A DNA stretch of 64,000 nt, taken from positions 496,001-560,000 of the forward strand of contig NZ_AUFF01000001.1 in NCBI RefSeq assembly GCF_000426365.1. Direction: 5' to 3'. The DNA comes from Arenimonas composti TR7-09 = DSM 18010 (GTDB taxonomy: Bacteria; Pseudomonadota; Gammaproteobacteria; Xanthomonadales; Xanthomonadaceae). Shown here piece by piece: positions 4,861 to 51,322 of the stretch; within the stretch, counting starts at the first letter, position 1, and each line of letters starts with the position of its first letter. A program made the translations under genes and the position numbers. Under the pieces are notes generated by a model. That model was given only the letters and a program-made list of their open reading frames with translations. It was not told where the DNA came from and made no database searches.

Positions 4861-4940
4861 AAGGGGTACGGGGTCGCGCCCAGCACTCGCGTTCACACGC
4901 GCTGCGCGACGATCGGCCGTACCGCGTCCCCCCGTACCTT
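4861..4940. repeat. composite intergenic hairpin (word AAGG-TACGGGG-CGCG)
   Basis: Left arm 4861-4878 (AAGGGGTACGGGGTCGCG) and right arm 4923-4940 share the same ordered words in inverted orientation (reverse complement of the right arm: AAGGTACGGGGGGACGCG), with small length differences. The arms are separated by about 44 bases. It begins 3 bases after the stop of the gene at 3803-4858 and ends 7 bases before the ATG at 4948. See the findings for the group it seems to belong to. Confidence 0.6.
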
Positions 4941-4947
4941 CAGCCCG

Positions 4948-6030
4948 ATGCGTCGTGCGCTCACCCTCCTGCTGATCCTGTTCACCGCCGCCTGCACGAC
5001 GGCGCCGCCGGTCCATGGCCCGTCGGCGGAGCAGGTGCGTGCGGAAATCACGCGGCGCATTCCGGCGCGGGTGCCGGACCGCGAGGGCTGGGCGGCCGAC
5101 ATCCAGCGTGCGTTCGCGGCCCAGGGCATCCCGCCGACGCTCGAGAACCAGTGCGCGGTGCTGGCGGTGATCGAGCAGGAAGGCGGCTATGTCGCCGATC
5201 CGGTGGTGCCGGGCCTGGCCACGATCGCCCGCCGCGAGCTCGATCGACGCGCCGGCGAGAAACACATCCCGCGCTTCGCGGTCGACGCCGCGCTGCGCCT
5301 GCGGGACCGCGACGGCCGCGCCTGGAGCGAGCGCCTCGCGGCGGTGCGCACCGAGCGCGAGCTCAGCGAAATGTTCGAGGACATGGCGGCGCGGCTGTGG
5401 ATCGGCGAGGGCTTCTTCGCCGGCTTCAATCCGGTGCACACCGGCGGGCCGATGCAGGTGTCGATCGACTTCGCCGAGCGCAATGCGCGCGGCTACCCGT
5501 ATCCGCTGGAGGACACGACGATCCGCCGCGAGGTGTTCACCCGGCGTGGCGGCCTCTATTTCGGCATCGCCCATCTGCTCGGCTACCAGACGCCGTACAC
5601 GCGCAAGGTGCACCGCTTCGCCGACTACAACGCCGGCTGGTACGCGAGCCGCAATGCCGCCTTCCAGCGCGCGGTGGCGATCGCCAGCGGCCGCGAACTG
5701 GCACTCGACGGCGACCTGCTGCGCCCCGGCGCGCCACTGCGCCGCCCCGGCGAAACCGAGGCGGCGCTGCGCACGCTGTCGGCGCAGCTCGGCATGGACG
5801 ACGCCGCGATCCGCCGCGAACTGCAGCGCGGCAACCGCCTCGACTTCGGCGACAGCGCGCTGGTCGCGAAGGTCTATGCGCTCGCCGAAGCACGCCACGG
5901 CGCGCCGCTGCCCCGCGCGCAACTGCCCGGCATCCGCCTCGAAAGCCCGAAGATCACCCGCGAGCTGACGACCGCGTGGTTCGCCGAGCGGGTGAATGCG
6001 CGGTACCAGGAATGTCTGAGCAGAAAATAG
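4948..6030 (+). CDS. DUF1615 family lipoprotein (YaiW-like)
   Basis: A 360-residue predicted lipoprotein with a short signal peptide and lipobox (LFTAAC, Cys17). The rest fits the DUF1615 family: an early segment with NQCAVLAVIEQEGGYVADP, then GPMQVSIDFAERNARGYPYP, GLYFGIAHLLGYQTPY and ADYNAGWYASRNAAFQ. E. coli YaiW, the studied member, is an outer-membrane surface lipoprotein linked to uptake of some peptides. The glutamate in the early motif and the Tyr/Asn-rich late motifs recall lysozyme-like folds, but this is inference. The TAG stop lies at the start of another composite hairpin. Confidence 0.82.
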   Translation: MRRALTLLLILFTAACTTAPPVHGPSAEQVRAEITRRIPARVPDREGWAADIQRAFAAQGIPPTLENQCAVLAVIEQEGGYVADPVVPGLATIARRELDRRAGEKHIPRFAVDAALRLRDRDGRAWSERLAAVRTERELSEMFEDMAARLWIGEGFFAGFNPVHTGGPMQVSIDFAERNARGYPYPLEDTTIRREVFTRRGGLYFGIAHLLGYQTPYTRKVHRFADYNAGWYASRNAAFQRAVAIASGRELALDGDLLRPGAPLRRPGETEAALRTLSAQLGMDDAAIRRELQRGNRLDFGDSALVAKVYALAEARHGAPLPRAQLPGIRLESPKITRELTTAWFAERVNARYQECLSRK

Positions 6031-6127
6031 GGGATAGGAAGTAGCAAGTAGTGGCCGCGGCACGCACCTGTCGACCGCATGCTAGTCCCCGTTCTCTATT
6101 TGCTACTTCCTGGTCACTACTTGCTAC
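6028..6127. repeat. composite intergenic hairpin (word GGAAGTAGCAAGTAG)
   Basis: Left arm 6037-6051 (GGAAGTAGCAAGTAG) pairs with 6096-6110 at 14 of 15 positions. The right side also carries a second copy of the word GTAGCAAGTAGTG in reverse (within 6111-6127), so words are reordered as well as inverted. The element starts on the stop codon of the DUF1615 gene and reaches to about 60 bases before the next ATG. Confidence 0.7.
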
Positions 6128-6188
6128 CAGTTGTCCCCAGACGCGCGCGGCCGCCGTTGAAACCGGCAACCGCCGCCGGGGAACGCCG

Positions 6189-7475
6189 ATGTCACGCCGA
6201 ATCGCACTGACGTGCCTGCTCGTTCTTTCCTTCGTGCTCGCCGCCTGCAGCGGCAGCCGCTTCGAGCCGCCGCAGGTGCTCGGCCGGCCGGCACTGGTCG
6301 AAGGCGAACAACCGCGCCTCTGGGTGCTGACGAAGCAGGAGGAAGTGCGTGAGGTGCGCTTCGGCACCGGCGGCGGGCGCAACCGCAACACGAGCACGCG
6401 CCTGGACACCTTCTTCCACTTCGAACTGACCGCCTTCGATCCGCTGCTGATGCAGCCGGCATGGAAGCAGCGCCTGGTGAGCATCGGCGATCCGGATGCG
6501 CGCGGCCCGCTGCCGTCGCGCGTCATCGGCTCGGCGGTCGATGGCCGCCTGCTCGGCCAGGACGGCGACCTCGTGTGGCTGCTGATCGATGCGACCCCGT
6601 TCGCGCTCTCGGCCAGCGACGGCCGCATCGTCATCGACGGCCCGGCCCTCGAGGCGCGCCGGCACGAACTGGCCGGCCTGCTGCCGGCCGACGCGACCCA
6701 TTACGGCTTCGACCGCGGCCTCGTGATCACCACCGCGGATGCGCGCGTGGTCTCGGTGCGCGGGCCGGAGTTCACCGTGGCCGACTACGTGCCGCCGCCG
6801 CCGCCGGTCCCGGATGCGCCGCTGAAGGCCAACGGCAGCCCGCGCATCGTGCCGATGCGGCCGCTTTACAACCACGTGCGCCACCTGCAGCGCGGCGACG
6901 AATGGATTGGCCTGTACTCGCCGAAGGAGGCCGAGGCCGCGGCCGAGGATCCGTTCGGCGACCGCTACCTGTTCCCGTATTCGATCCTCGACGAGGGCAC
7001 GATGGCGCGCCGGCAGTTCTGGCGCGGGCGGATCGCCGAGAAGCAGCACTTCGACGAGCGCTTCCCCCACATCGCCGGCATGGACCCGGTGGCCGGCAGC
7101 CCGACCTTCCTGCGCGGCCGCTTCCTGCGCGATCCGCGCACCGACGCCGCCTTCGTTCCCGCCGACGGCGGCCTGCTGGTCTGGCACCTGACCCGCGTCG
7201 ACAGCGATGGCCGCCTCGCGCTCAGCCGCCTGGATGACGACTTCCAGCCGCGCTGGACGACCGAGCTGCCGCTGAGCGAATCGGGCACCGGCAATCCGGT
7301 CAGCACCTGGATCCTCGACGATCGGGTGGTCGCGGCGGGAGACCTGCAGTTCGAGGACGCCGAGCGCATTCGCCAGCGCGATTTCCATCTCGTCTCCATC
7401 TCCCTCGCCGACGGCGCCCGCCGCGCCTGGAACCTCACCCGCGAATCCCCCCTCACCGAACTCGAACCCCGCTGA
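6189..7475 (+). CDS. PA2928-like lipoprotein
   Basis: A 428-residue predicted lipoprotein with signal peptide and lipobox (FVLAAC). The body alternates beta-strand-like segments with repeated Asp/Gly turns (DGRLLGQDGDLVWLLI, SDGRIVIDGPALEARRHEL), suggesting a beta-propeller-type fold. A Pro-rich stretch (PPPPPVPDAP) lies near residue 200. It resembles the uncharacterised family named after Pseudomonas PA2928. I chose the ATG at 6189 because it starts the signal peptide. No enzyme motif is visible. The role is unknown; the location is the periplasmic face of a membrane. Confidence 0.72.
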   Translation: MSRRIALTCLLVLSFVLAACSGSRFEPPQVLGRPALVEGEQPRLWVLTKQEEVREVRFGTGGGRNRNTSTRLDTFFHFELTAFDPLLMQPAWKQRLVSIGDPDARGPLPSRVIGSAVDGRLLGQDGDLVWLLIDATPFALSASDGRIVIDGPALEARRHELAGLLPADATHYGFDRGLVITTADARVVSVRGPEFTVADYVPPPPPVPDAPLKANGSPRIVPMRPLYNHVRHLQRGDEWIGLYSPKEAEAAAEDPFGDRYLFPYSILDEGTMARRQFWRGRIAEKQHFDERFPHIAGMDPVAGSPTFLRGRFLRDPRTDAAFVPADGGLLVWHLTRVDSDGRLALSRLDDDFQPRWTTELPLSESGTGNPVSTWILDDRVVAAGDLQFEDAERIRQRDFHLVSISLADGARRAWNLTRESPLTELEPR

Positions 7476-7783
7476 TTTCGTCTGGCCGGCGGGGTGCTCG
7501 GGGCCGTTCCGCCGGAAAGGATTCGCGGGCTGGCGTGCGTGCGTCGGCGTTTTCCGGACACGCCGTGAACCCGTCCATGGGGGCTTCTCGGCGACGTCCC
7601 TGTCGCCGATCGTCCGGAGAACGCCGCCACGCAGCGGTCCACTCGCGAACCTTGTTCGGCCCTTCGCGCAGGACATCGGCGCGGCTCGTCCCGGCCCGGG
7701 ACTTTCGTCAGGCGCGGGGGTGGGGGAGAGGGGGCAGAGTGGCGCGACCGCGCGCGCAGACGCGCATTCCGGGGATCGAAGAG
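7476..7783. other. 308-bp intergenic region holding one Xanthomonad-type repeat
   Basis: No reading frame here looks coding. The middle (7552-7621) is a nested stem-loop repeat listed separately. The last 80 bases before the ATG at 7784 are very GC-rich and show no clear promoter. Confidence 0.6.
7552..7621. repeat. nested stem-loop intergenic repeat
   Basis: Outer arms TTCCGGAC (7552-7559) and GTCCGGAG (7612-7619) enclose a word GTGAACCCGTCCATGGGGGC and an inner perfect stem CGGCGAC (7589-7595) / GTCGCCG (7602-7608) with a 6-base loop. The word 'gccgtgaacccgtccatggggg' belongs to a repeat type I recall as common between genes in Xanthomonas and relatives. No T-tract follows. Confidence 0.6.
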
Positions 7784-9080: not shown

Positions 9081-10919
9081 ATGCGGAAAGGCGCATTCGC
9101 GCGGGCCTGGCTCGCGATCCTGGGCACGTCGGCGCTGCTGGCGGCGATTGCCCCGTGGGCAGCGCCGGCGCCGCCGGTGACGGCACCCGCCTTCGACCTC
9201 GCCGCCTACCGCCTACTGGCGGCCAGCGACCGCGAGGCCGGCATCGCCGAGGGCCGGCGCGTCCTCGACGCCGGCCTCTTCGACGCCGATCCGAGCGGCG
9301 AACGCCAGCTGCTCTGGTACATGGGCGGCGCCGCGATCGGCATGCCGGACGACGTCGCCCTCGGTGAGGTCGTGCTGCGCCTGGAAGGCCTGAGCGCCAC
9401 CGGCCGCGACCCGCTCGGCGGCCATTACGCGGGCCTGCTGCGCGGCGCCCGCCTCATCGACCAGGGCAACACCGGCGACGGCCTGGCGCGGATACTGGAA
9501 GCCGCCAACGCGCTGATGCGCGAACCCGAGCGCAGCGAACGCATCGTCGCCGCCGCCGAGCTGTGCCGCGCCTACGTCGCCGCCGAGCGCCCGTCGCAGG
9601 CGCAGCCGCACTGCCGCGAGCACACCCGGCTGGTGCGCGAGTCCGGCGACGCGGTGGCGCTCGGCCGCGCCGAATACCTCGAAGCCAGCGTGCTCAGCCG
9701 GCTCGACCTCTACGAACAGGCGGTGCCGCTGTGGCAGCGCGCGCGCCGGCGTTTCCTCGAGGCCGGTCTGCCGGCGCTGGCGGGGCGCGCCGCCGGCAGC
9801 CTCGCCGGCGACCTGGTGGCGCTGCGCCGCTTCGACGAGGCGCTGACGATGGCGCGCGAGTCGTCGGAAGCCGCCGAAGCGGCCGGCAATCCGATCAGCC
9901 GGCTGTATGCCGAGTCCGCCATCGCCTCCGCCCAGCTCGGCCTCGGCCGCACCGGCGCGGCGCTGGCGACGATCGACGCGGCGATCGCCGGCATGGCCGC
10001 GATCGACCATCCCGGCCTGCTCGCCAGCCTGCTGGAAACGCGCCTGCAGGTCCTCGAGGCCAGTGGCGCCGATGCGGCCGTCCTGGCCGGGGAACAGGCG
10101 CGGCTGGTGGCGCTGGCGGCGCCGGAGATGGATGCGGAGGAACACGACCTGGTCACCGACCTCGAGCAGCGCTACCGCGAACGCGAGCAGGCGCTGCGCA
10201 TCCGCGAGCTGGAGAACGCCAACCAGGCCGCGGCGCTGGAACTGGAACGCCAGCGCGACCACGTCGCCCGCCGTGAGGCGGCGCTGGAGGCGCAGCAGCG
10301 CACGACCCTGTACGCGATCGTCGCCGCGAGCGCGCTGGCGCTGGCGCTGGTGGTCGGCGCGCTGCTGCTGCGCTCGCAGCGCCGGCTGGCGACCAGCCTG
10401 CACCAGCAGGCCTATCGCGACGCCCTGACCACGCTGCCGAACCGGCGGGCGATGCTCGAACAGGCGCAGGCGCTGCTGGCGGAAGCCGGCGCCGCGGGCC
10501 GCGGCCATGCGCTGCTGATGGTCGACGTCGATCACTTCAAGGCGATCAACGACCGCGGTGGCCACCCGTTCGGCGACCGCGTGCTGGCCGCCGTCGCCGG
10601 CTGCCTGCAGGTGGCCTGCGCGGATCGCGCCAGCGTCGGCCGCTTCGGCGGCGAGGAGTTCCTGGTACTGGCGCCGGCGCGCGGCCGCGACGGTGCCGTT
10701 GCGCTCGGCGAGGACCTGCGCGCCTGCGTCGCGGCACTGCGCCTCCAGGACGGCGACCGTCCCGAGCCGGTGGCGGTCAGCGTCGGCATCGCGGTGCTCG
10801 ACGCCTCGACGCCGAGTCTGGCGGCATGGATCGCGGCGGCGGATGCGGCCCTGTACCGGGCGAAGCGCGAGGGGCGGGATCGCGTCGTCCTCCACGCCAT
10901 CGCCCCCACCCCATTGTAG
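9081..10919 (+). CDS. membrane diguanylate cyclase with helical-repeat sensor region
   Basis: A 612-residue protein: an N-terminal signal/anchor helix (residues 10-30), a long helical, TPR-like region (about 45-350) expected in the periplasm, a coiled coil (YREREQALRIRELENANQA), one membrane helix (about 407-430), and a C-terminal GGDEF domain. The active-site loop is RFGGEEF near residue 521, and DVDHFKAINDRGGHPFGD carries the metal and GTP contacts, so cyclase activity is expected. The inhibitory RxxD site is missing: the aligned residues are Ala and Ala. Its TAG stop (10917-10919) is part of the REP repeat that follows. The sensed signal is unknown. Confidence 0.88.
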   Translation: MRKGAFARAWLAILGTSALLAAIAPWAAPAPPVTAPAFDLAAYRLLAASDREAGIAEGRRVLDAGLFDADPSGERQLLWYMGGAAIGMPDDVALGEVVLRLEGLSATGRDPLGGHYAGLLRGARLIDQGNTGDGLARILEAANALMREPERSERIVAAAELCRAYVAAERPSQAQPHCREHTRLVRESGDAVALGRAEYLEASVLSRLDLYEQAVPLWQRARRRFLEAGLPALAGRAAGSLAGDLVALRRFDEALTMARESSEAAEAAGNPISRLYAESAIASAQLGLGRTGAALATIDAAIAGMAAIDHPGLLASLLETRLQVLEASGADAAVLAGEQARLVALAAPEMDAEEHDLVTDLEQRYREREQALRIRELENANQAAALELERQRDHVARREAALEAQQRTTLYAIVAASALALALVVGALLLRSQRRLATSLHQQAYRDALTTLPNRRAMLEQAQALLAEAGAAGRGHALLMVDVDHFKAINDRGGHPFGDRVLAAVAGCLQVACADRASVGRFGGEEFLVLAPARGRDGAVALGEDLRACVAALRLQDGDRPEPVAVSVGIAVLDASTPSLAAWIAAADAALYRAKREGRDRVVLHAIAPTPL

Positions 10920-11048
10920 GAGCGGCTTCAGCCGCGATCGCTCCCTCGCACTAAGCCGCGATCGCCCGATCGCCCGATCGCGAGAAGCTCCGGCGGCACG
11001 GGGAAAGGGAATGGGATACAGCAGAATCGCGGCTGAAGCCGCTCCTAC
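10916..11048. repeat. inverted REP-like pair between converging genes
   Basis: A forward copy of GTAGGAGCGGCTTCAGCCGC plus GAT (10916-10938) and an exact inverted copy (11026-11048) flank 87 bases that include tandem CGATCGCC words (about 10958-10980). The forward copy supplies the TAG stop of the cyclase gene, and the inverted copy supplies the TAG stop of the yihY gene on the other strand. Each copy contains its own small hairpin (GCGGC-TTCA-GCCGC). Confidence 0.95.
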
Positions 11049-13171: not shown

Positions 13172-15642
13172 GAACCCCGTAGGAGCGGCTTCAGCCGCGA
13201 TGCCGTACCAATTCCAGGCCGGTTTCCCGCAACAGCATCGCGGCTGAAGCCGCTCCTACAGGGGGGGAGGAGGGCGCGGACGAGCTCGGGGTAGTCGACC
13301 GGCTTGACCAGGTGCACGTCGACGCCGGCCTCGCGCGAGCGCCGGCGGTCGCCTTCCTGGCCCCAGCCGCTGAGCGCGACGATCCGCAGCGACGCCGCCC
13401 AGGCGCGCCGGCGCAGTTCCCCGGCGACCTCGAAGCCGTTGCGGCCCGGCAGGCCGATGTCGAGCAGCAGCGCGTCCGGTCGCATCGCTTCGGCGCGGGT
13501 GATCGCAGTGTCCCCGTCGTGGGCGGTTTCGACGACCGCGCCCTCCACCTGCAGCAGCTCGGCGAGCGAGTCCGCGGCATCGACGTTGTCGTCGACGACC
13601 AGGATCTTCCAGCCGGCGAAGGTGGCGCCGCAGCGCGCGCTGCCGGCCGCGGCCGCCGCCACGGCGCCGGGATCGGCGGCGCGCGGCAGGGTGACCACGA
13701 ATTCGCTGCCGTGGCCGCGGCCGGCGCTGTGCACCGCGATGCTGCCGCCGTGCATCTCGACCAGCCCGCGCGCCAGCGCCAGGCCGATGCCGAGTCCGCC
13801 CTGGGCGCGATGCAGCGAGGGTTCGGCCTGCGAGAACATCTCGAACACCCGGGCCTGCATTTCGGCGGGAATGCCGACGCCCTGGTCGCGCACCCGCACG
13901 CGGACGACGCCGTCGCCGGCCTCGGACACCAGCTCGATGCGGCTGCCACGGTCGCTGTACTTGCAGGCGTTGATCAGCAGGTTGGCGAACACCTGCGCCA
14001 GGCGCACGCCGTCGGCGTCGACGAACAGCGGTGTGGCCGGGGCGCTGAGCTGCAGGGGGTGGTCGCCGCGTTCGACGTAGGGCGCCGCGGTCTCGAGCGC
14101 CGACTGCAGCACCGCGTCCAGGCGCAGCCTCTCGCGGCGCAGCTCGATGCGGCCGTTGGTGACGCGCACGACATCGAGCAGGTCCTCGAGCAGGCGCACC
14201 ATCTGCCGCAGCTGGCGGTCGATCACCTCGTGGGCCTGGCGTACCACCGCGTCTTCGGGGCTGCCGTGGCGGATCAGGTAGAGCGACGTCGCGATCGGTG
14301 CCAGCGGATTGCGCAGCTCGTGCCCGAGGGTCGCCAGGAATTCGTGCCGGCGCACGTCGGCGAGCCGGGCCTCGGTGATGTCGCGGGCGGTGCCGACCAC
14401 GCGTTCGGCGACGCCGTCGCGGAAGCTGGCCTTGCCGGTGAACTGCACCCAGCGCAGGCGGCCGTCGGCCTGGCTGCGGACGCGGAACTCGGCGGCGAAG
14501 TGACCGTCGCCGGCCGGGTCGAGGGCGCGCGCCAGCGCCGCTTCCATGACCGGGCGATCGGCGGCTTCGATCGCATCGACGAAGCCGGCGTAGTCCACCG
14601 GCGCGTCCGGCGCCAGGCCCCAGAGCGCATGCATGCGCGCGTCCCAGTCGATCGCTCCGGTCGCCGGGTCGTAGACGTGGATGCCGAGGTCGGCGGCGTC
14701 GCAGGCCAGATGCAGCTGTTCGGTGCGCCGCTGCAGCGCTTCCTGGGCGAGGTGGCGGCTGGTGACGTCGGAGCCGATCACGAAAATGCCGTAGATGCGG
14801 CCGCGCTCGTCGCGGATCGGCTGGTAGACGAAGTCGAGGCGGCGTATGCCGCCGCCGAGATGGTCCGGGAGTTCGACCTCCGCATCGAGGGCGATGTGCG
14901 GTTCGCCGGTGGCCAGCACGCCGTCGAGAAGGTCGACGAAGCCCTGGCGGACGGCCCAGGGCAGGACTTCCGCGACCGGTTTGCCGAGGATCTCGTCACC
15001 GGCACCGATCAGTGCGTGGTAGCCCGGATTCGCGAACCGGAACACGTGCCGTGGCCCCTCGAGCAGGCAGACGAAGCCCGGCGCCTGCTGGAAGAGCTGG
15101 CGCCAGCGCAGCTCGGCGGCGCGCACGCGCCGTTCGGCCAGCACCTGTTCGGTGGTCTCGGTGCACAGCACCAGCACGCCACCGATGCCGTTGGCGGCGG
15201 TGGCGTCGTCGATCGGGCTGTAGCTGTAGGTCCAGTAGACCTCGTCGCGGCGGCCGTGGCGGTCGATCGGCACCAGCGCGTTCTCGTGCCAGGTCGACCC
15301 CTTGCCGTCCATGACGTACTGGATCTGCGGGCCGATGATGTCCCAGATCTCCGGCCACCAGTCGCGGCCGCGGCCGCCGAGCATGCCGGGATGCTTTTCC
15401 GGGCCGAGCGAACGCGCGTAGGCGTCGTTGTACAGGCAGACCAGTTCCGGACCGAGGAACAGGAAGACCGGGTGGTTCGTCGTCAGCATCAGGCGAACGA
15501 CGGTGCGCCACGAGGGCGACCAGTCCGGGACGTCGCCCAGCGCTGTCCCTGACCACGGAAACGCGCGGATGCGCGCGCCCATCTCGCCGCCGCCGTGCAG
15601 GAAACCATGGTCGCGGTCGGGATCGGGACGCTCGTCGGCCAT
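13168..15642 (-). CDS. PAS-domain hybrid histidine kinase
   Basis: An 824-residue cytosolic sensor kinase without membrane helices. Order: an N-terminal PAS-like region with WPEIWDIIGPQIQYVMDGKG, further PAS domains (about 170-290 and 300-420), the phospho-acceptor HisKA helix (LGHELRNPLAP, H441), the ATPase domain (NLLINACKYSD, DQGVGIP, GLGIGLALARGLVEMHGG), and a C-terminal receiver (D728 in LLLDIGLPG, Lys in LVKPVD). This is a typical soluble hybrid kinase, probably passing phosphate to a separate partner; none is adjacent. The last 28 residues (beginning CRSGFSRDA and ending RLKPLLRGS) are translation of the REP pair at 13179-13259, so this tail is repeat-derived. Confidence 0.9.
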   Translation of the reverse strand: MADERPDPDRDHGFLHGGGEMGARIRAFPWSGTALGDVPDWSPSWRTVVRLMLTTNHPVFLFLGPELVCLYNDAYARSLGPEKHPGMLGGRGRDWWPEIWDIIGPQIQYVMDGKGSTWHENALVPIDRHGRRDEVYWTYSYSPIDDATAANGIGGVLVLCTETTEQVLAERRVRAAELRWRQLFQQAPGFVCLLEGPRHVFRFANPGYHALIGAGDEILGKPVAEVLPWAVRQGFVDLLDGVLATGEPHIALDAEVELPDHLGGGIRRLDFVYQPIRDERGRIYGIFVIGSDVTSRHLAQEALQRRTEQLHLACDAADLGIHVYDPATGAIDWDARMHALWGLAPDAPVDYAGFVDAIEAADRPVMEAALARALDPAGDGHFAAEFRVRSQADGRLRWVQFTGKASFRDGVAERVVGTARDITEARLADVRRHEFLATLGHELRNPLAPIATSLYLIRHGSPEDAVVRQAHEVIDRQLRQMVRLLEDLLDVVRVTNGRIELRRERLRLDAVLQSALETAAPYVERGDHPLQLSAPATPLFVDADGVRLAQVFANLLINACKYSDRGSRIELVSEAGDGVVRVRVRDQGVGIPAEMQARVFEMFSQAEPSLHRAQGGLGIGLALARGLVEMHGGSIAVHSAGRGHGSEFVVTLPRAADPGAVAAAAAGSARCGATFAGWKILVVDDNVDAADSLAELLQVEGAVVETAHDGDTAITRAEAMRPDALLLDIGLPGRNGFEVAGELRRRAWAASLRIVALSGWGQEGDRRRSREAGVDVHLVKPVDYPELVRALLPPCRSGFSRDAVAGNRPGIGTASRLKPLLRGS
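13179..13259. repeat. inverted REP-like pair read through as coding tail
   Basis: A forward copy (13179-13201) and an inverted copy (13237-13259) of the GTAGGAGCGGCTTCAGCCGC repeat are separated by 35 bases. Unlike the pairs elsewhere in the window, it lies inside an open frame: the hybrid kinase gene on the minus strand continues through both arms and stops at 13170. Confidence 0.95.
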
Positions 15643-16851: not shown

Positions 16852-16968
16852 GCGCGACGCCGGCGGCTTCTTCACGCCGGATCGCCGGCGCCGGCGCCAC
16901 GCTCCCGCGACCCCACGGAGAGCCGGCTCGGGTTCGTGCGCCGCGACAGCCCGAAGATCGCCCTCCTA

Positions 16969-16987
16969 CCTCGGACGAACTACGAAC
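16969..16987. repeat. lone arm of a composite hairpin (word GTTCGTAGTTCGTCCGAGG)
   Basis: Read on the minus strand, this 19-mer directly follows the stop of the M49 peptidase gene (16993). It matches the left arm of the composite hairpin at 47192-47210 at 18 of 19 positions. I see no complementary partner in the 120 bases to its left, so the hairpin is incomplete. Confidence 0.65.
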
Positions 16988-16992
16988 TGCCC

Positions 16993-43204: not shown

Positions 43205-44155
43205 ATGACTCCAGACCCCACCCGCCAGCCTCTGCCCAGCCCCGCAACCCCGCCGCCGCGCCGTCGGAATCCGCTCCTCGCCGCGATCGCTCCCTGGGTC
43301 GCGGCGGTCCTGCTGATCACCAGTACCTGCCTGCATGTGCCGGTGCTGCTGGCGGTGGCGCTGTTCAAGGCGGTGCTGCGGATTCCGGCCTGGCGGCGGA
43401 CCTTCGACGCGTGGCTGATGGCGATCGCCGAGAACTGGATCGGCATCAACAGCGCGATGATCGACCGCTTCACGAGCACGCGCTTCGTGATCGAAGGGCT
43501 CGAGGGCCTGCGCCCGGACGGTCACTACCTGGTGCTGGCCAACCACCGCAGCTGGGTCGACATCCCGGTGCTGCAGAAGGCCTTCAACCGGCGCATCCCC
43601 TTGCTGCGCTTCTTCCTGAAGAGCCAGCTGTTCTGGGTGCCACTGCTGGGCCTGGCGTGGTGGGCGCTGGATTTCCCCTTCATGCGCCGCTACACCAAAT
43701 CGCAGATCGCGAAGAACCCGGCCCTCGCCGGTCGCGATGTCGAAGCGACCCGGCGTGCATGCGCGAAGTTCCTGACGATCCCGGTGTCGGTGATGAACTT
43801 CGTCGAAGGCACCCGCTTCACCGGCGCCAAGCATGCCGCGCAGCAGCCGCCGTACCGGCACCTGCTGCGGCCGAAGGCCGGCGGCGTCGCCTTCGTGCTG
43901 GGGGCGATGGGGCAGGCGATCGACGCGGTGCTCGACGTCACGATCCACTACGACACCGGCACGCCGAGCTTCGCCGACCTGTTCGCCGACCGCATCGGCG
44001 TGGTGCGCGTGCACGTGCGCGAACTGCCGGTCCCCGAAGGCTTCGCCGGCGGCGACTACGAGAACGACCGCGCGTTCCGCGTCCGCTTCCAGGCCTGGCT
44101 GAACGGGCTGTGGCAGGAGAAGGACGCGCGGCTCGAAAGCTGGAAAGGCGAGTAA
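43205..44155 (+). CDS. membrane acyltransferase (PlsC-like, YihG-type)
   Basis: A 316-residue acyltransferase with an N-terminal membrane helix (PWVAAVLLITSTCLHVPVLL). The catalytic NHRSWVD block (N113-H114 to D119, the HX4D motif) is followed by FFLKSQLFWVPLLGLAWWAL, FMRRYTKSQI and the acceptor-binding FVEGTRFT. This set matches the YihG-type lysophospholipid acyltransferases, which add an acyl chain to lysophosphatidic acid-like acceptors. Its TAA stop (44153-44155) is part of a composite hairpin arm. It has its own -10 at 43174. Confidence 0.9.
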   Translation: MTPDPTRQPLPSPATPPPRRRNPLLAAIAPWVAAVLLITSTCLHVPVLLAVALFKAVLRIPAWRRTFDAWLMAIAENWIGINSAMIDRFTSTRFVIEGLEGLRPDGHYLVLANHRSWVDIPVLQKAFNRRIPLLRFFLKSQLFWVPLLGLAWWALDFPFMRRYTKSQIAKNPALAGRDVEATRRACAKFLTIPVSVMNFVEGTRFTGAKHAAQQPPYRHLLRPKAGGVAFVLGAMGQAIDAVLDVTIHYDTGTPSFADLFADRIGVVRVHVRELPVPEGFAGGDYENDRAFRVRFQAWLNGLWQEKDARLESWKGE

Positions 44156-44260
44156 CGAGCGGAGAGTAACGAGTAACGAGTAGCAACTCGCGCTTCGCGC
44201 GGCCGCGCCGCAGGCGCGGGCTTCCACTCGTTACTCGTTACTCTCCACTCGTTTCTCGCT
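44148..44260. repeat. composite intergenic hairpin (word GAGTAACGA)
   Basis: The left arm (44148-44184) carries GAGTAACGA words in tandem. The right arm (about 44224-44260) is its reverse complement with only two or three mismatches in about 37 positions. The loop is GC-rich with its own small hairpins. The first word supplies the TAA stop of the acyltransferase gene, and the left arm contains stop codons in all three frames. The right arm ends 1-2 bases from the stop of the converging metallopeptidase gene. Confidence 0.9.
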
Positions 44261-44261
44261 G

Positions 44262-45131
44262 TCAAAGTCGCGCGGCGGCGAAGGTGTCGCAGCGCGCGAA
44301 CTCGCCCGTTTCGAAGCCGATGCGGAACCAGCGGACGCGCTGTTCCGAGCTGCCGTGGGTGAAGGAGTCGGGGACCACGCGGCCCTGGCTCTGGCGCTGC
44401 AGGGTGTCGTCGCCGATCGCCGTCGCGGTGTTCAGCGCTTCCTCGAGGTCGCCCGCCTCGAGCCAGGCGTGGCGCTGCTGCGCATGGTGCGCCCACAGGC
44501 CGGCGAAGCAGTCGGCCTGCAGTTCCTGGCGCACCAGCGGGCCGTCGGCGCCCTCGGCACCGCCGCGGCTGTTGCGGCTGCGGTTCACCTGGTCGCTGAC
44601 GCCGATCAGCGTCTGCACGTGGTGGCCGACCTCGTGCGCGATCACGTAGGCCTGGGCGAAATCGCCGCCGCCGCCGAGCTGGGTACGCATCTGCTGGAAG
44701 AAGCTCAGGTCGATGTAGACCTTGCGATCGGCCGGGCAGTAGAAGGGCCCGACTTGGGCGGTGGCGCCACCGCATCCGGACTGCACCGCGCCGCTGAACA
44801 GCACCAGGGTCGGCGGCGGGTAATTCAGGTTGCTGGCGCGGAACACCTGCGTCCACACATCCTCGGTCTCGCCGAGGATCGCCGCGACGAACTGCCCCTG
44901 TTCGTCGGTCGGCGCGGTGTTCGGGCCGGACTGTTCCACCGGCGCCGGGCCGCCGGACTGCTGCATCAGTCCGAGCATCTCCAGGGGATTGATGCCGAAC
45001 AGCATGCCGATCACCAGCACCGCGACGGTCCCGCCGAGGCCGAGGCGCGCACCGCCGCCGCCGAGGCGGGCCGGGCCGGCACCCCGCCGGTCGTCGACAT
45101 TGGTGCTCTGCCGCGCGCTGCGCCACTTCAT
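44262..45131 (-). CDS. YpfJ-type neutral zinc metallopeptidase
   Basis: A 289-residue protein of the YpfJ/KPN_02809 family. The start has the family form MKWRSARQSTNVDDRRG; a single membrane helix (GGTVAVLVIGMLFGI) follows, then a Pro/Gln linker and the catalytic part. Zinc site: AYVIAHEVGHHVQTLIG (HEXXH), with a downstream ELQADCFAGLWAHHA supplying the third ligand. Orientation suggests an N-terminal anchor with the peptidase in the periplasm. Substrates are unknown. Confidence 0.92.
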   Translation of the reverse strand: MKWRSARQSTNVDDRRGAGPARLGGGGARLGLGGTVAVLVIGMLFGINPLEMLGLMQQSGGPAPVEQSGPNTAPTDEQGQFVAAILGETEDVWTQVFRASNLNYPPPTLVLFSGAVQSGCGGATAQVGPFYCPADRKVYIDLSFFQQMRTQLGGGGDFAQAYVIAHEVGHHVQTLIGVSDQVNRSRNSRGGAEGADGPLVRQELQADCFAGLWAHHAQQRHAWLEAGDLEEALNTATAIGDDTLQRQSQGRVVPDSFTHGSSEQRVRWFRIGFETGEFARCDTFAAARL

Positions 45132-45279
45132 GGTCCGGTCTCCGTCATGGGTCGGGCGATTGTTGCCCAAGGCCGTGCCATCGGCGAGTGAGGATGCGCC
45201 CGTCCCCCGGGGTGCCGCGTCCGCCCGTGAACGGGTAGAGTCCGGCAGTCACCGTCCATTGCGTTTCGCCGGAGCCTGC

Positions 45280-47199
45280 ATGAACCAGCCGTCCTCGCCA
45301 CGCCAGCTGACGCTGCGCGCGGTCGTCCTGTCGATCATCCTGGCGGTGGTGCTCGCCGCGGCCAATACCTACCTGGGCCTGTTCGCCGGCCTGACGATCG
45401 CCACCGCGATCCCGGCCGCGGTGATGTCGATGGGCGTGCTGCGCGTGCTCGGCGGCGGCACGATCCTCGAGAACAACATCGTGCAGACCGGCGCCTCCGC
45501 CGGCTCCTCGATCGCCGCCGGCGTGATCTTCACGATCCCGGCGCTGATCATCCTCGGCCACTGGCAGACCTTCGAATATTCCTGGGTGCTGGCGATCGCC
45601 GGCCTCGGCGGTCTGCTCGGCGTGCTGTTCTCGGTGCCGCTGCGGCGCTCGATGATCGTCGAGGAGCCGCTGCCGTTCCCCGAGGGCAAGGCGGCCGCGG
45701 AAGTGCTCAAGGCCGGCGAGAACCCCGGGCCGGGCCTGAAGATCCTCGGCATCGCCGCCGTCATCGGCGGCTTCGTGAAGCTGGCCGCGCAGAGCGGCCT
45801 GCGGCTGATCCCGGACACCGCGGCGGCTTCCGGCTTCTTCGGGAAGTACCTCGGCTACATGGGCACGAACCTGTCGCCGGCGCTGCTCGGCGTCGGCTAC
45901 ATCGTCGGACTGAACGTCGGCATCGTGGTCCTTTCCGGCGCGGTGATCAGCTGGCACATCGCGATCCCGGCCTACCACGCGATGTTCGCGGCCACCGATC
46001 CGGCCCTCGCCGGCATCGGCGCCGAGGACGCGGCGTGGACGATCTGGTCGACCCAGATCCGCTACCTCGGCGTCGGCGCGATGCTGATCGGCGGCATCTG
46101 GACCCTGTTCACACTGCGCAATTCCCTGCTCAGCGGCATCCGCAGCGGCATCGCCGCCGCCCGCCAGTCGCGCGACACCGTGATCGCCGACACCGAGCGC
46201 GACCTGCCGATGAAATGGATGCTGGTGGCGCTGGTGATCTTCGTGATCCCGCTGGCGCTGCTCTACCAGGCGGTGGTCCAGAGCTGGGGTGTGAGCATTC
46301 CGATGACGATCATCATGATCGTCGCCGGATTCGTGTTCGTGTCGGTGTCGGCCTATCTCGCCGGCCTGGTCGGCTCGTCGAACAATCCGGTGTCGGGCAT
46401 CACGATCGCGACGATCCTGTTCGCCTCGCTGGTGCTGATGCTGCTGCTGGGCAAGGACTCGCCGATCGGTGCGGTGGCCGCGATCATGATCGGCGCGGTC
46501 GTCTGCTGCGCGGCGGCGGTCGGCGGCGACAACCTGCAGGACCTCAAGGCCGGCTACCTGGTCGGCGCGACGCCGTGGAAGCAGCAGTTGATGCTGATGA
46601 TCGGCGCCTTCTCCTGCGCGCTGATCATGGCGCCGGTGCTGAACCTGCTGGCCGAGGCCTACGGCATCGGTGCGCCGACGCCGGATCGCCCGGATTCGCT
46701 GGCGGCGCCGCAGGCGACGCTGATGGCGTCGGTGGCGCGCGGCATGTTCGGCGGCGACCTGCCGTGGACGATGATCTGGATCGGCGCCGGCATCGGTGCG
46801 GTGATCATCGCCTTCGACGAGTTCCTGAAGGCGCGCAAGTCGAACTTCCGCGTGCCGGTGCTGGCGGCGGCGATCGGCATCTACCTGCCGCTGGAACTGA
46901 TGGTGCCGATCTTCCTCGGCGGCCTGCTGTCCTGGCTGGTCGAGCGCCGGCACGGCGTCGACCCGCACGACGAGGAGGCGCGCGACCGCGTGCACCGTCC
47001 CGGCACCCTGTTCGCCGCGGGCCTGATCACCGGTGAGGCGCTGATGGGCATCGCGATCGCGGTGCCGATCGTGGTCAGCGAAAACCCCTCGGTGCTGGCG
47101 ATGGACGGCCGCTGGAATGTCGGCGAGATCGGCGGCCTGATCGTGCTGGCGATCGTCGCGGCGTGGATCTACCGCGTCGCGGCCAAGCGTAGTTCGTAG
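45280..47199 (+). CDS. OPT family oligopeptide transporter
   Basis: A 639-residue carrier with 14-16 membrane helices. Family marks include NTYLGLFAGLTIATAIPAAV near the N-terminus, ENNIVQTGASAGSSIAAGVI, and VGSSNNPVSGITIATILFAS in the middle. OPT carriers move peptides or metal chelates with protons. The ATG at 45280 has GGAG just upstream. The final residues and TAG stop (47197-47199) lie in the left arm of a composite hairpin, so the last few codons (AAKRSS) may be repeat-derived. Confidence 0.92.
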   Translation: MNQPSSPRQLTLRAVVLSIILAVVLAAANTYLGLFAGLTIATAIPAAVMSMGVLRVLGGGTILENNIVQTGASAGSSIAAGVIFTIPALIILGHWQTFEYSWVLAIAGLGGLLGVLFSVPLRRSMIVEEPLPFPEGKAAAEVLKAGENPGPGLKILGIAAVIGGFVKLAAQSGLRLIPDTAAASGFFGKYLGYMGTNLSPALLGVGYIVGLNVGIVVLSGAVISWHIAIPAYHAMFAATDPALAGIGAEDAAWTIWSTQIRYLGVGAMLIGGIWTLFTLRNSLLSGIRSGIAAARQSRDTVIADTERDLPMKWMLVALVIFVIPLALLYQAVVQSWGVSIPMTIIMIVAGFVFVSVSAYLAGLVGSSNNPVSGITIATILFASLVLMLLLGKDSPIGAVAAIMIGAVVCCAAAVGGDNLQDLKAGYLVGATPWKQQLMLMIGAFSCALIMAPVLNLLAEAYGIGAPTPDRPDSLAAPQATLMASVARGMFGGDLPWTMIWIGAGIGAVIIAFDEFLKARKSNFRVPVLAAAIGIYLPLELMVPIFLGGLLSWLVERRHGVDPHDEEARDRVHRPGTLFAAGLITGEALMGIAIAVPIVVSENPSVLAMDGRWNVGEIGGLIVLAIVAAWIYRVAAKRSS

Positions 47200-47292
47200 T
47201 TCGTACGAGGTACGAGGTACGAGGTACGAGGTAGTGTCGGGACGGGCGATAGCACTCGCCGTCCTGACTACTGCCTCGTACGGACTACGAAC
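47188..47292. repeat. composite intergenic hairpin (words GTTCGTAGTTCGTACGAGG and TACGAGG x4)
   Basis: The left outer word (47192-47210) and right word (47274-47292) pair at 18 of 19 positions. The left arm also has four perfect tandem heptamers TACGAGG (47204-47231), of which the right arm has one match. The centre (GTCGGGACGG and CCGTCCTGAC) extends the stem. The element covers the stop of the OPT gene and abuts the stop of the converging transglycosylase gene at 47293. Confidence 0.9.
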
Positions 47293-48495
47293 TCATTCTT
47301 TTCGCAGGGCCTCGAGGATGGCGCGGCCGGCGCGGCCGTCGGGCGTGAGGCCGAGGCGGCGCTGTTCGGCGGCGATGGCGTCGCGGGTCTTCGCGCCGAT
47401 GAGGCCGTCGACGGCGCCGATGTCGTGGCCGCGGGCGAGCAGCCGTTCCTGCAGTTGCCGGCGTTCGGCGCGGCTCAGGCCCGGATCGTTGGTCGGCCAG
47501 TCCGCGACCAGGCCGGGACCGCCGCGCAGGCGGTCCGAGAGCAGGGCGATCGCCAGCGCATAGCTCTCGGCGGCGTTGTAGGAATAGATCGCATCGTAAT
47601 TGCGCTGCACGAGGAAGGCCGGGCCCTCGCGGCCCGCCGGCAGCAGCAGCGCCGCGGCCGTGTCGCCGGCGGGCAGGTGACTGCCGTCGGCGCGGACCAC
47701 GCCACGGCTGCGCCAGTGCGCCATCGGCTTTTTCGCCTGGCGCCCGGCCGCGTTGAAGTCGCCCGCCGGTAGCCTGACCTCGAAGCCCCAGGCCTCGCCG
47801 GGGCGCCAGCCGGCCTTGCGCAGGTAGTTGGCGGTGGAGGCGAGGGCGTCGGGGATGCTCGCGACGAGGTCGCGGCGGCCGTCGCCGTCGCCGTCGACGG
47901 CGATGCGCTGGTAGGTGCTCGGCATGAACTGGGTGTGGCCGAAAGCACCGGCCCAGGAGCCGGCGAGGCCTTCGGCGCGCAGGTCACCGGCCTGGATCAG
48001 CCTAATCAGCGCGAACAGCTCGCCGCGGAAGAAGGCCTGGCGGCGTCCGGCGCAGGACAGCGTCGCCAGCGACTGCAGCAGCGGCTTGCGGCCGAAGGTG
48101 CGGCCGTAGTCGCTTTCGACGCCCCAGACCGCGACGATGGTTTCGGCGTCGACCTGGTATTCGGCGGCCAGCCGGTCGAGCAGTTCGCGATGTTCGGCGA
48201 GGCGGGCGCGGCCGTCGTCGACACGCTCGTCGTCGACGAGGCCGGCAAGGTAGTCCCAGATCGGCGTGCGGAACTCCGGCTGGTAGTCGAGCGATTCCAG
48301 CACCGACGGATCCTTGCGCAGGTCGGCCGTCAGTGTGGCGAAGGTGTCGCTGCGGATGCCGGCGGCCGCCGCCGGTGCGCGCAGACTGGCGACGCAGGCC
48401 TCGAAGGCGGCGTCGCGCGGCAGTTCCGGCGCGGCGGGGGCGGGGGCCGCAGGCACGGCGAGGGTCGCGAGCAGGAACAGGGCGGGCGTGGTCAT
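47293..48495 (-). CDS. MltB-type lytic murein transglycosylase with peptidoglycan-binding end
   Basis: A 400-residue exported enzyme. After the signal peptide (ATLAVPAAPAPAAP) the GH103 domain contains the catalytic glutamate in VWGVESDYGRTFG; ALIRLIQAGDLRAEGLAGSW, GAFGHTQFMPSTYQRIAVDG and the calcium-loop-like DGDGDGRRDL follow. Residues about 335-400 are a peptidoglycan-binding domain 1 (LQERLLARGHDIGAVDG, then TPDGRAGRAIL). It cleaves peptidoglycan to 1,6-anhydro products in the periplasm. No lipobox is visible, so it is likely soluble. Divergent from dbpA. Confidence 0.92.
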   Translation of the reverse strand: MTTPALFLLATLAVPAAPAPAAPELPRDAAFEACVASLRAPAAAAGIRSDTFATLTADLRKDPSVLESLDYQPEFRTPIWDYLAGLVDDERVDDGRARLAEHRELLDRLAAEYQVDAETIVAVWGVESDYGRTFGRKPLLQSLATLSCAGRRQAFFRGELFALIRLIQAGDLRAEGLAGSWAGAFGHTQFMPSTYQRIAVDGDGDGRRDLVASIPDALASTANYLRKAGWRPGEAWGFEVRLPAGDFNAAGRQAKKPMAHWRSRGVVRADGSHLPAGDTAAALLLPAGREGPAFLVQRNYDAIYSYNAAESYALAIALLSDRLRGGPGLVADWPTNDPGLSRAERRQLQERLLARGHDIGAVDGLIGAKTRDAIAAEQRRLGLTPDGRAGRAILEALRKE

Positions 48496-48520: not shown

Positions 48521-48530
48521 GAACCGGTTC
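48521..48530. promoter_or_regulatory. palindrome GAACCGGTTC in a divergent promoter region
   Basis: A perfect 10-bp palindrome in the 94-bp gap between the transglycosylase (start 48495, minus) and dbpA (start 48590, plus). The same decamer forms the core of the 16-bp palindrome at 50322-50337. The form resembles LacI/GalR-family operators, but no such regulator is in the window. Confidence 0.4.
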
Positions 48531-48578
48531 GTGACGACCGCGGCTCAAGCTGCCGCCGGCCCGGGGCGGGGCGCGTGC

Positions 48579-48584
48579 GACAAT
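48579..48584 (+). promoter_or_regulatory. -10-like GACAAT, 5 bases before the dbpA ATG
   Basis: TGCGACAAT is an extended -10-like element ending 5 bases before the ATG at 48590, with no Shine-Dalgarno in between. It suggests a leaderless dbpA transcript. Confidence 0.4.
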
Positions 48585-48589
48585 CGCGC

Positions 48590-49957: not shown

Positions 49958-50026
49958 CGTTGCGAGCGGCTCGCGGGGCGGGCCCGGCGACTCCAGCGGG
50001 TGGTGGCGCGGGGAACGATCACCGCC

Positions 50027-50218
50027 TCAGCGACCCAGCGGCGCCGCCGCCACGGCCTTGCGGGCCGGCGCCTTCTGCGCGCGGCGACGGCTGATTTCGG
50101 CGTCGATGCGGCGGTATTCGGCACTGCCGATGTCGCCGGCGATGACCAGTTCCCAGAGTCGGATGGCCAGGTCGTCGTCGATGACGGCCTTGCTCGGGAA
50201 GGGGATGACGATGCCCAT
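50027..50218 (-). CDS. small hypothetical protein
   Basis: A 63-residue protein: MGIVIPFPSKAVIDDDLAIR, then LWELVIAGDIGSAEYRRIDA and a basic Ala/Lys/Arg end. The ATG at 50218 is preceded by GGGAG at a good distance. No signal or membrane segment is visible. The IPFP start and short two-helix form are seen in small conserved proteins of this bacterial group, but I know no function. It stands alone between dbpA and rluF. Confidence 0.6.
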   Translation of the reverse strand: MGIVIPFPSKAVIDDDLAIRLWELVIAGDIGSAEYRRIDAEISRRRAQKAPARKAVAAAPLGR

Positions 50219-50321
50219 GTGGAGCTCCCTGATGCGGTGGGGGGAAACGCAGGGAGGTGGAAGCAGGTTCCGTGCCACGAACGCGGCGAAATCAGGCGCG
50301 GGCGGGTCGCGCATCCGAAAG

Positions 50322-50337
50322 CGTGAACCGGTTCACG
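50322..50337. promoter_or_regulatory. 16-bp perfect palindrome CGTGAACCGGTTCACG
   Basis: A perfect palindrome in the 259-bp gap between the small gene (start 50218, minus) and rluF (start 50478, plus). It contains the decamer GAACCGGTTC also found at 48521-48530. There is no T-tract, and it is not next to a gene end, so an operator is more likely than a terminator. Confidence 0.45.
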
Positions 50338-50477
50338 GAACCGGGGCCCGGGATGCCAGCACCGGTAACCGCACGCCGGCCGCAGGTAAGCCGGTCTCAC
50401 TGCGGCGATGGCAGGACGGCTGCGGCCATGACAGCATTCGCGCCCACTTCTGACGCTTTACGGCACCTGCCGCTCCG

Positions 50478-51191
50478 ATGCGCCTCAATCGCCATATCGC
50501 CGACACCGGCCACTGCTCCCGCCGCGAGGCCGACCGCCTGATCTCGGAGGGGCGGGTGCAGGTCAACGGCATCCGCGCCCGCATCGGCGCCGAGGTCGGC
50601 GAGGGCGACCAGGTCCTGGTCGATGGCCAGCCGCTGCGCATCCGTGCGGGCAAGCCAGGCGCCCGGCGCCACGTCTACATCGCCCTGAACAAGCCGGTCG
50701 GCATCACCTGCACCACCGACACCACGGTCGCCGGCAACATCGTCGACTTCGTCGGCCACGAGCAGCGCATCTTCCCGATCGGGCGCCTCGACAAGGATTC
50801 GGAAGGGCTGATCCTGCTGACCAGCAATGGCGACATCGTCAACCGCATCCTGCGCGCCGAAGAGAAGAAGGAGAAGGAATACCTGGTCGGCGTGAACCAC
50901 GCGGTGACCGAGGAATTCCTGCGTGGCATGGCCCGCGGCGTGCGCATCCACGGGCAGATGACGCTGCCCTGCCGTACCCGCAAGATCGCCCGCTACGGCT
51001 TCTCGATCGTGCTGACCCAGGGCCTGAACCGGCAGATCCGCCTGATGGCCGCGGCTTTCGACTACCGCGTGACCCAGCTGCGCCGCATCCGCATCGCCAA
51101 CGTCCGTCTCGGCGAACTCAAGCCCGGCCGCTGGCGCAACCTCACCGATGCCGAGTTGCGGGGGCTGCTGCCGGAGCAGCAGGTCTGGTAA
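50478..51191 (+). CDS. rluF: 23S rRNA pseudouridine synthase RluF
   Basis: A 237-residue enzyme: an S4 RNA-binding domain (MRLNRHIADTGHCSRREADR, then LISEGRVQVNG) followed by the synthase domain with the catalytic Asp in PIGRLDKDSEGLILLT. KEKEYLVGVN and LTQGLNRQIRLMAAAF with the YRVTQLRRIRI segment fit the RluF rather than RluB/E branch. RluF makes pseudouridine at position 2604 of 23S rRNA. With dbpA nearby, this is a small cluster for large-subunit maturation. Its stop is 3 bases before a composite hairpin. Confidence 0.93.
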   Translation: MRLNRHIADTGHCSRREADRLISEGRVQVNGIRARIGAEVGEGDQVLVDGQPLRIRAGKPGARRHVYIALNKPVGITCTTDTTVAGNIVDFVGHEQRIFPIGRLDKDSEGLILLTSNGDIVNRILRAEEKKEKEYLVGVNHAVTEEFLRGMARGVRIHGQMTLPCRTRKIARYGFSIVLTQGLNRQIRLMAAAFDYRVTQLRRIRIANVRLGELKPGRWRNLTDAELRGLLPEQQVW

Positions 51192-51322
51192 AGCAGAAAC
51201 GAGAAACGAGAAACGAGGAACGGGAAACGAGTCGAAACTCCCGTCGGCCGATCCCGCCTTTCGCGCGCACCGCGCGCGCGTTCACTCGTTCCTCGTTCCT
51301 CATTTCTCATTTCTCATTTTCC
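51192..51322. repeat. composite intergenic hairpin (word GAAACGA)
   Basis: Left arm (51195-51232) carries AGAAACGAGAAACGAGAAAC and further GAGGAACGGGAAACGAG words. The right arm (51281-51322) is the inverted form with consistent C-to-T changes (GAAATGAG in reverse). The arms match at about 80 percent of about 38 positions. The loop is a GC-rich stretch with alternating GCGCGC. The element starts just after the rluF stop and ends 21 bases before the next ATG. Confidence 0.85.

Follow-up and report, generated by a model that had tools for sequence, protein, structure and literature searches.

Gene-end hairpins built of seven-nucleotide words in Arenimonas composti and related Lysobacteraceae

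Hairpins of the window and their words

The window analysed here is a stretch of 64,000 nucleotides (nt) from Arenimonas composti TR7-09 = DSM 18010 (bases 496001-560000 of contig 1, in a genome of 3.16 Mb, 29 contigs and ~71% G+C), in which an initial annotation had recognised five long intergenic inverted repeats sharing one architecture but differing in word content, at 4861-4940, 6028-6127, 44148-44260, 47188-47292 and 51192-51322. The best ungapped inverted-repeat score of each site was compared with 300 dinucleotide shuffles of the same stretch. The scores at 44148 (28), 51190 (21), 47186 (17) and 6022 (13) were each reached by 0 of 300 shuffles, whereas that at 4858 was just 9 and was reached by 4 of 300; the corresponding RNA-folding z values were -12.0, -6.9, -7.8, -3.9 and -2.0. 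By folding, four of the five sites form a stable stem-loop of the kind expected of intrinsic terminators. The sites at 44148, 51192, 47188 and 6028 are genuine long hairpins, and the reservation that their arms might pair no better than shuffled DNA does not apply to them; 4861-4940, at which the pairing is close to chance, is marginal and is not counted. The arms and loops lie as follows (positions in the window).

4858-4941, no strand: weak hairpin (GGGGTACGGGG), placed in no heptad family here
6022-6060, plus strand: left arm of AAGTAG-type heptads, overlapping the end of gene 4948-6030
6087-6138, minus strand: right side of the AAGTAG hairpin, as two overlapping partial partners (6087-6125 and 6112-6138)
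44148-44182, plus strand: left arm, purine-rich, of the GAGTAAC family
44183-44224, no strand: loop with an inner GC-rich hairpin, a CGCGCTTCGCGCG-like module
44225-44259, minus strand (C1:540225-540257, minus strand): right arm, reverse complement of GAGTAAC heptads
47188-47235, plus strand: left arm of TTCGTAG-TTCGTAC-GAGGTAC-GAGGTAC heptads
47260-47293, minus strand: right arm pairing with the TTCGTAG/GAGGTAC heptads, where the convergent gene 47293-48495 ends
51197-51232, plus strand: left arm of GAGAAAC-type heptads, 5 nt past the stop of gene 50478-51191
51284-51319, minus strand: right arm of the GAGAAAC hairpin, 24 nt upstream of the start of gene 51344-52141

At 44148, the upstream gene 43205-44155 ends on a TAA (44153-44155) provided by the first heptad of the left arm, and the right arm adjoins the stop of the convergent gene 44262-45170; similarly, the TAG stop (47197-47199) of gene 45280-47199 lies inside the left arm at 47188. 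The protein of gene 50478-51191, which we take to be rRNA pseudouridine-synthase-like, has its nearest matches in Arenimonas species (87% in A. caeni). There were no Rfam matches at gathering score in the window.

Each arm is 30-36 nt long and consists of four or five tandem 7-nt words, the two arms forming an inverted pair around a variable loop. A period of 7 is common to the arm families, with a lag-7 self-match of 0.69 (z 14.2, 14 arms) for GAGnnnn, 0.64 (z 12.3, 7 arms) for TTCGTAG/GAGGTAC and, from no more than two arms, 0.48 (z 2.6) for AAGTAG, and no lag-7 peak was seen in arms made of repetitive extragenic palindromes (REPs). This shared period had not been noticed in the initial annotation, whose words are present in the sequence but had been assigned to the wrong coordinates: by site they are AAGG-TACGGGG at 4861, GGAAGTAG at 6028, GAGTAACGA at 44148, GTTCGTAG/TACGAGG at 47188 and GAAACGA at 51192. 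The heptad words are GAGTAAC (44148), GAGAAAC (51192), TTCGTAG/GAGGTAC (47188) and AAGTAG (6028). The 44148 arm reads GAGTAAC-GAGCGGA-GAGTAAC-GAGTAAC-GAGTA, the consensus of its family in this genome is GAGTAAC-GAGTGGA-GAGTAAC-GAGTAAC-GAGTG, and a second GAG sub-family has the form GAGAAAC-GAGAAAC-GAGGAAC-GAGAAAC-GAGTG. The recurrent order of words in an arm can be written U-B-U-U-GAGTG, in which U is the repeated word and B, the odd second heptad, is about GAGTGGA.

Whole-genome searches with the GAGTAAC, GAGAAAC and TTCGTAG hairpins matched at least 40 places each, and these merge to at least 112 distinct places, some of them being a single arm; 8 places were common to both GAG sub-families among the matches listed, and the AAGTAG hairpin matched three other places. 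In 1.14 Mb of the genome that was read, 53 GAG-type and 20 TTCGTAG-type pairs exceeded the arm thresholds. The GAGTAAC, GAGAAAC and TTCGTAG words are thus dispersed multi-copy families of this genome. The earlier view that the sites are not copies of one sequence holds between words but fails within each word, and the outcome that had been named as refuting the initial annotation's reading, namely that each word is a copied family, was largely observed, with three words dispersed and AAGTAG present in few copies. An example of a single arm is found at window 16962-16988, where the minus strand carries a TTCGTAG-type arm match for which no partner was reported.

An unbiased sample of 864 kb (two 400 kb blocks plus the window, 27% of the genome, with 422 intergenic regions) contained 66 intergenic inverted repeats scoring >=18, compared with 0 in ten shuffled sets. 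Among the five window sites, 44148 and 51192 alone pass this score, with 47188 and 6028 below it. By arm class, the 66 comprise 24 REP (GTAGGAGCGGCTTCAGCCGCGAT), 14 GAGnnnn, 7 TTCGTAG/GAGGTAC, 2 AAGTAG, 3 CGGATGAA with period 10 and 7 whose arms end in GGAC, the other 9 falling outside these classes. The commonest intergenic inverted repeats sampled are thus pairs of GTAG-type REPs, with GTAGGAGCGGCTTCAGCCGCGAT or a variant of it, and within the window they occupy 10916-11048, 13175-13263, 54639-54727 and 57590-57696.

Polarity, gene context and stop codons

Polarity was classified among inverted repeats scoring >=16, a left arm with >=64% purine being called purine-rich and one with <=36% pyrimidine-rich. 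On this basis, 21 repeats of the 864 kb were purine-left, 0 were pyrimidine-left and 66 fell in between; purine-left also exceeded pyrimidine-left in genomes G026 (2 vs 0) and G088 (6 vs 0) and at loci of 80 relatives (16 vs 4). A purine-rich left arm set against the upstream stop codon, which had been given as part of the plan of every site, is found widely, although the arm at 47188 has only ~56% purine by hand count and its class a mean of 59%. Since it is the left arm that is purine-rich, the polarity holds on both strands. Half of the purine-left repeats at the relatives' loci (8 of 16) represent one orthologous position, at about 5591-5680, that carries a AAAAGGGGACGGAGGGGATTAAGTCG-like hairpin (L071, L081, L087, L090, L094, L096, L102 and L106; seven loci titled Stenotrophomonas and one [Pseudomonas] hibiscicola); unlike the heptad hairpins described here, this one is common to several species.

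GAG-type hairpins were shown to be rare between divergent genes: the flanking genes are convergent at 28 of the 53, tandem at 24 and divergent at 1, divergent pairs making up 108 of 775 gene pairs. The stop codon of the neighbouring gene is found inside TGGA-type (mostly GAGTAAC) arms or <=10 nt from them at 38 of 41 gene ends, and inside the arm or at its inner edge at 25 of 41. The stop offsets of these 25 are 8 nt in 13 cases, 22 in 4, 29 in 1, 36 in 2 and elsewhere in 5; offsets 8, 22, 29 and 36 are the TAA/TGA positions of the consensus, and all three frames are covered. Other GAG arms, mostly without TAA, contain the stop at 13 of 39 gene ends, and TTCGTAG arms at 17 of 24 (9 at 10 nt, 4 at 3 nt). 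A tandem of a stop-bearing heptad (GAGTAAC, GAGGAGT or TTCGTAG) closes all three frames within 20-23 nt, suggesting why some such repeats tolerate gene ends. Stops on the antisense strand were present in 0 of 12 heptad words tested, so that purine-left orientation alone offers stops to both flanking genes. However, words without a stop (GAGGAAC, GAGAAAC, GGGAATC) imply that stops are not the whole reason for the purine-left polarity.

Recurrence of the plan among relatives

The degenerate pattern GAGNNNN-GAGNGNA-GAGNNNN-GAGNNNN-GAGTG was searched, with up to one mismatch, over 395 genomes of the family and was found in 72 of them, belonging to 26 of the 54 genera and including this genome; as the pattern fixes 5 of the 7 letters of the second heptad, conservation of that heptad is partly built in. 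Against a backward control, the hits numbered 61 vs 0 in this genome (G000), 136 vs 27 in G349 and 37 vs 3 in G029. The control was as high or higher in some genomes (54 hits vs 59 backward in G088, 11 vs 127 in G144), because plain GAG-heptad arrays match both ways. The U-B-U-U order is firm in genomes such as G000, G349 and G029, and not in all 72. Among 369 genomes sampled from the class, of which four belong to this family, exact matches to the pattern were confined to this genome.

The U word varies by lineage, being GAGTAAC here and both GAGGAAC and GAGGAGT in G349. Arms found by a pattern-free inverted-repeat scan have U = GAGGAAC in Pseudoxanthomonas composti (L070), GAGAAGT in G088 and GGAAGTA in G026, with GAGCGCA, GAGCGGA and GAGAGGA, respectively, as second heptads. 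An earlier pattern, CGAGTAACGAGTAACGAG, had matched 8 places even in this genome and served only as a lead to G088. When one arm was taken from each of 30 positive genomes, an inverted partner (>=22 of 33 positions matching within 330 nt; unrelated stretches of the same loci reach <=19) was present downstream of 18 of the 30 arms, or 17 of 29 when this genome is left out, and upstream of 0 of 30. Within G349 alone, 27 of 30 arms (25 of 28 distinct hairpins) had the partner downstream and none had it upstream, and 29 of the 30 were not between divergent genes.

The TTCGTAG/GAGGTAC arms occur at 47 places here and, with <=3 mismatches allowed, in 1 of the 395 genomes, which is this one. Their sequence is unrelated to the GAG words, and they have the same period, size, pairing and position. 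The initial annotation's central observation, that sites follow the same plan with different words, is borne out both by the recurrence of the heptad plan in other genera and by the TTCGTAG family with its unrelated sequence; 'one plan, many words' holds at the scale of the bacterial family.

The individual hairpins are far less widespread than the plan. The 44148 hairpin has no match in 26 congeners, and at its position a hairpin of this sequence is missing in all 8 congeners with both flanks alignable (one of the 8 gaps is 625 nt long and was compared over its first 400 nt). In congeners G026 and G002, other, unrelated hairpins are seemingly present, by eye, in the 44148 gap and at the 47188 site. 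The G002 gap (L188) orthologous to window 44156-44261 spans 135 nt between the same convergent genes, and it seems by eye to hold a different composite hairpin, of CCCCTGCTTGCAGGGG with GGGAGGGG words. Downstream of the orthologue of gene 50478-51191, a heptad hairpin was found in 0 of 80 relatives; a lone heptad-like word was present in 2 of them and a different inverted repeat (score >=15) in 8. Synteny with G026 was examined for more empty sites, and the gaps were mostly not alignable. Together, these comparisons show that heptad-hairpin families come and go between species.

Origin of the hairpins and competing explanations

Several known systems resemble these hairpins in part. The closest is the GGGAATC heptamer of Xanthomonas (Rehm et al. 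2015, PMC4692102), described from two genomes with 70 and 75 convergent inverted pairs, placed within 50 bp past stop codons on the coding strand, with 8% and 7% at divergent genes, and with its function left open by the authors. As in that system, the units are 7 nt long (four per arm being preferred there), dispersed and intergenic, and both a 7-nt tandem unit and convergent inverted pairs near stops are found here. The differences are that other words are used here and no GGG tracts occur, so that the G-quadruplex reading is not applicable; that there are several word families per genome, a U-B-U-U order with an odd second heptad, and stops supplied by the arms; and that the GAGTAAC hairpin is missing from the 26 congeners. 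The statement that no described family fits is therefore to be qualified: the GGGAATC inverted pairs are a near precedent whose defining word and G tract do not apply (PMC4692102). The heptad hairpins are repeats of the same kind as the GGGAATC pairs, with other words.

REP doublets forming hairpins (REPINs), as described by Bertels and Rainey 2011 (PMC3116915), likewise have two inverted conserved units and a less conserved spacer, form hairpins, and are extragenic and present in many copies. In the heptad hairpins, however, the units are heptad tandems rather than REP palindromes and no REP-associated tyrosine transposase (RAYT) was tied to the arms at the four of five Y1 loci examined; moreover, compensatory changes are described as common in REPIN hairpins (PMC3116915), whereas rare changes in heptad arms are not mirrored. 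For GTAG- and CGTC-tagged REPs, the termini are reported often to give a TAG stop to flanking open reading frames (PMC3733652), much as TTCGTAG and GAGTAAC arms supply TAG and TAA stops here. Those REPs are tagged short palindromes, unlike the heptad tandems, and genuine GTAG REPs form a separate class in this genome (the 24 of 66 above). Abundant intergenic 7-nt repeats, TAACTGA, are reported from the gammaproteobacterial Beggiatoaceae (PMC4679880) but differ in being given as direct repeats, a single indirect one being mentioned for the draft genome. Neither the GAGnnnn nor the TTCGTAG family, nor the U-B-U-U order, nor a multi-word reading was found in the literature searched.

It is proposed, with a probability of roughly 0.6, that the heptad hairpins are REPIN-like dispersed non-coding repeat families of the Lysobacteraceae (Xanthomonadaceae), with paired heptad arms, that are tolerated or used as gene-end hairpins. 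New copies would arise when existing paired arms are copied into the 3' ends of genes, either in a transposition-like manner or by gene conversion. At such positions a hairpin could be tolerated because it lies beyond the end of translation, and the stops of some words would close any reading frame. Once placed, it would form a strong stem, either in the 3' untranslated region (UTR) or in the gap of a convergent gene pair, that probably protects mRNA ends or stops read-through, and from then on its two arms would decay independently.

A number of points weigh against this proposal. A function at gene ends is read from position only, and the gene ends were called by a home-made hexamer gene caller. 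The 20 TTCGTAG hairpins (6 convergent, 12 tandem, 2 divergent) show no depletion between divergent genes. The TTCGTAG consensus arm has stops in only two of the three frames and the GAGAAAC and GAGGAAC words have none, so stops cannot explain everything. No clean empty site was obtained, because the closest genomes are only ~80% identical in genes. The two arms of a site still resemble each other more than random pairs do, so that some pairing constraint may remain. The loops of G349 are mostly unrelated (5 of 25 match another), which is odd for an element copied whole; in this genome, loops share short GC-rich stretches, and 47 of 49 match at least one other loop (42 of 49 once REPs are masked, against 0 in the control). 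Among the Y1-transposase loci, four of five of which were examined, one (L295) is flanked by REPs, none is flanked by GAGnnnn arms and one has a TTCGTAG-type motif ~1.4 kb away. Finally, target duplication is not clear: 4-mers are duplicated at 9 of 73 sites against a shuffled mean of 4.0 and maximum of 10, and duplications of k=3 and k>=5 are within shuffles at the 73 sites, the element edges being assumed from the arm consensus.

A further idea, advanced only tentatively, is that the heptad hairpin is a repeatable product, in that unrelated 7-nt words (GAGnnnn, TTCGTAG/GAGGTAC, AAGTAG and the GGGAATC of Xanthomonas) would independently become purine-left gene-end hairpins and spread. A shared process would then choose both period 7 and polarity; for example, heptad slippage might seed an arm, inverted duplication might pair it, and genome-wide conversion might homogenise the word, while words with stops in every frame could land at gene ends. 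One architecture with changing words is easily missed, as a sequence search sees each family alone, often in one species. The plan (period 7, unit order, purine-left and stop-flush placement, arm-borne stops) turns the Xanthomonas heptamer puzzle into a system for comparison across the whole family, in which the turnover of words, their spread and their effects at gene ends are testable.

That the hairpins are RNA structures (transcription terminators or 3'-UTR stems) whose pairing in the transcript is maintained by selection appears unlikely. Intrinsic terminators have a stable stem past stop codons, often between convergent genes, and this agrees with the position of the hairpins past stop codons, with their strong folding (z down to -12), with the over-representation of GAG hairpins between convergent genes, only 1 of 53 lying between divergent ones, and with the other hairpins that G026 and G002 seem by eye to hold in the same convergent gaps. 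The stem is, however, ~35 bp long with a variable loop and no T run, a run of four T within 12 nt past the stem being found at just 3 of 73 sites on one strand and 1 of 73 on the other. Sense-strand mismatches at tandem GAG sites, 34 G-U vs 30 A-C, show no preference for pairs allowed in RNA, and past the 50478-51191 orthologue any inverted repeat at all (score >=15) is present in only 8 of 80 relatives and a heptad one in 0.

Somewhat less probable still is that they are ordinary miniature inverted-repeat transposable elements (MITEs) or REPINs moved by the Y1 (RAYT) transposase of this genome. The paired inverted units, variable spacer, high copy number and intergenic location would be expected of such elements, the genome contains five PF01797 matches as well as GTAG-type REPs, and REP-like sequence is found in 17 of 53 loops. 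Yet the arms are not themselves tagged palindromes, and the flanks of the four Y1 loci examined and the unclear target duplications, given above, may speak against this origin as well.

The initial annotation had suggested that a local process such as fold-back templating or strand-switching keeps making the arms. Under fold-back templating, or quasi-palindrome correction, a strand switch copies one arm from the other and each site remakes its own matching arms; this is improbable. The two arms of a site have more positions in common than arms taken from different sites (1502 identical positions vs 1403.6, sd 19.3), the third heptad in G349 agrees between arms in 19 of 25 hairpins vs 10.8 when shuffled (0 of 2000 reach 19), and some arms are perfect, e.g. 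at C1:80648 (35 of 35). The coupling is mostly between word sub-families, however. A first covariation count (z about 5) was inflated by the two sub-families and was replaced by a within-subtype test on 22 and 22 sites whose two arms share a subtype; the excess left there is small, the observed value being reached by 40 and 115 of 2000 shuffles. Of the rare variants (those in <=2 sites), 1 of 34 and 1 of 57 (2 of 91) are shared by both arms, as in shuffles (means 0.56 and 0.65). In G349 the two arms agree in their second heptad in 3 of 25 hairpins vs 3.9 shuffled, which argues against arm-on-arm copying, as this would carry the second heptad along. The own partner is strictly the nearest arm at 1 of 53 GAG sites (5 ties) and 3 of 20 TTCGTAG sites (2 ties), and 9 of the 53 GAG sites pair arms of different subtypes. 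Rare variants, second heptad and nearest-arm ranks lead us to reject arm-to-arm correction as the main process, and with the words dispersed the suggested local process is not upheld. The arms look drawn from a genome-wide pool, after which they decay apart; slow homogenisation of the repeated heptads may nevertheless take place.

Chance palindromes in purine-rich low-complexity DNA, to which the near-chance 4858 site and plain GAG-heptad arrays without a partner (e.g. L304, L313, L322) could be ascribed, are extremely improbable in view of the 66 vs 0 inverted repeats in shuffles and are refuted for four of the five window sites, which lie beyond the 300 shuffles.

Other repeats were encountered in the course of these comparisons. 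The palindrome AACGGTGTCAGAGACAGTT recurs intergenically (window 820-865 and C3:296359-296445) and stands on both sides of a Y1-transposase match in L293 (1354-1399 and 2175-2224), which suggests that it is the own repeat of that transposase. Another kind of hairpin, whose arms mostly end in GGAC or GGGG, has a loop length of exactly 52 nt in 6 of 7 cases in this genome (C1:115998, C1:221332, C1:221804, C3:42984, C3:201892 and C3:304052), similar ones being present in congener G026 (C1:37842, 38113, 144883 and 173863); their loop length is fixed, unlike that of the heptad hairpins. Arms of 10-nt words (CGGATGAACA-like), resembling the heptad plan but with period 10, are located at C1:74037-74190 and C1:130119-130203, and a 10-nt-word hairpin is also found in Arenimonas metalli (L037, 14230-14411).

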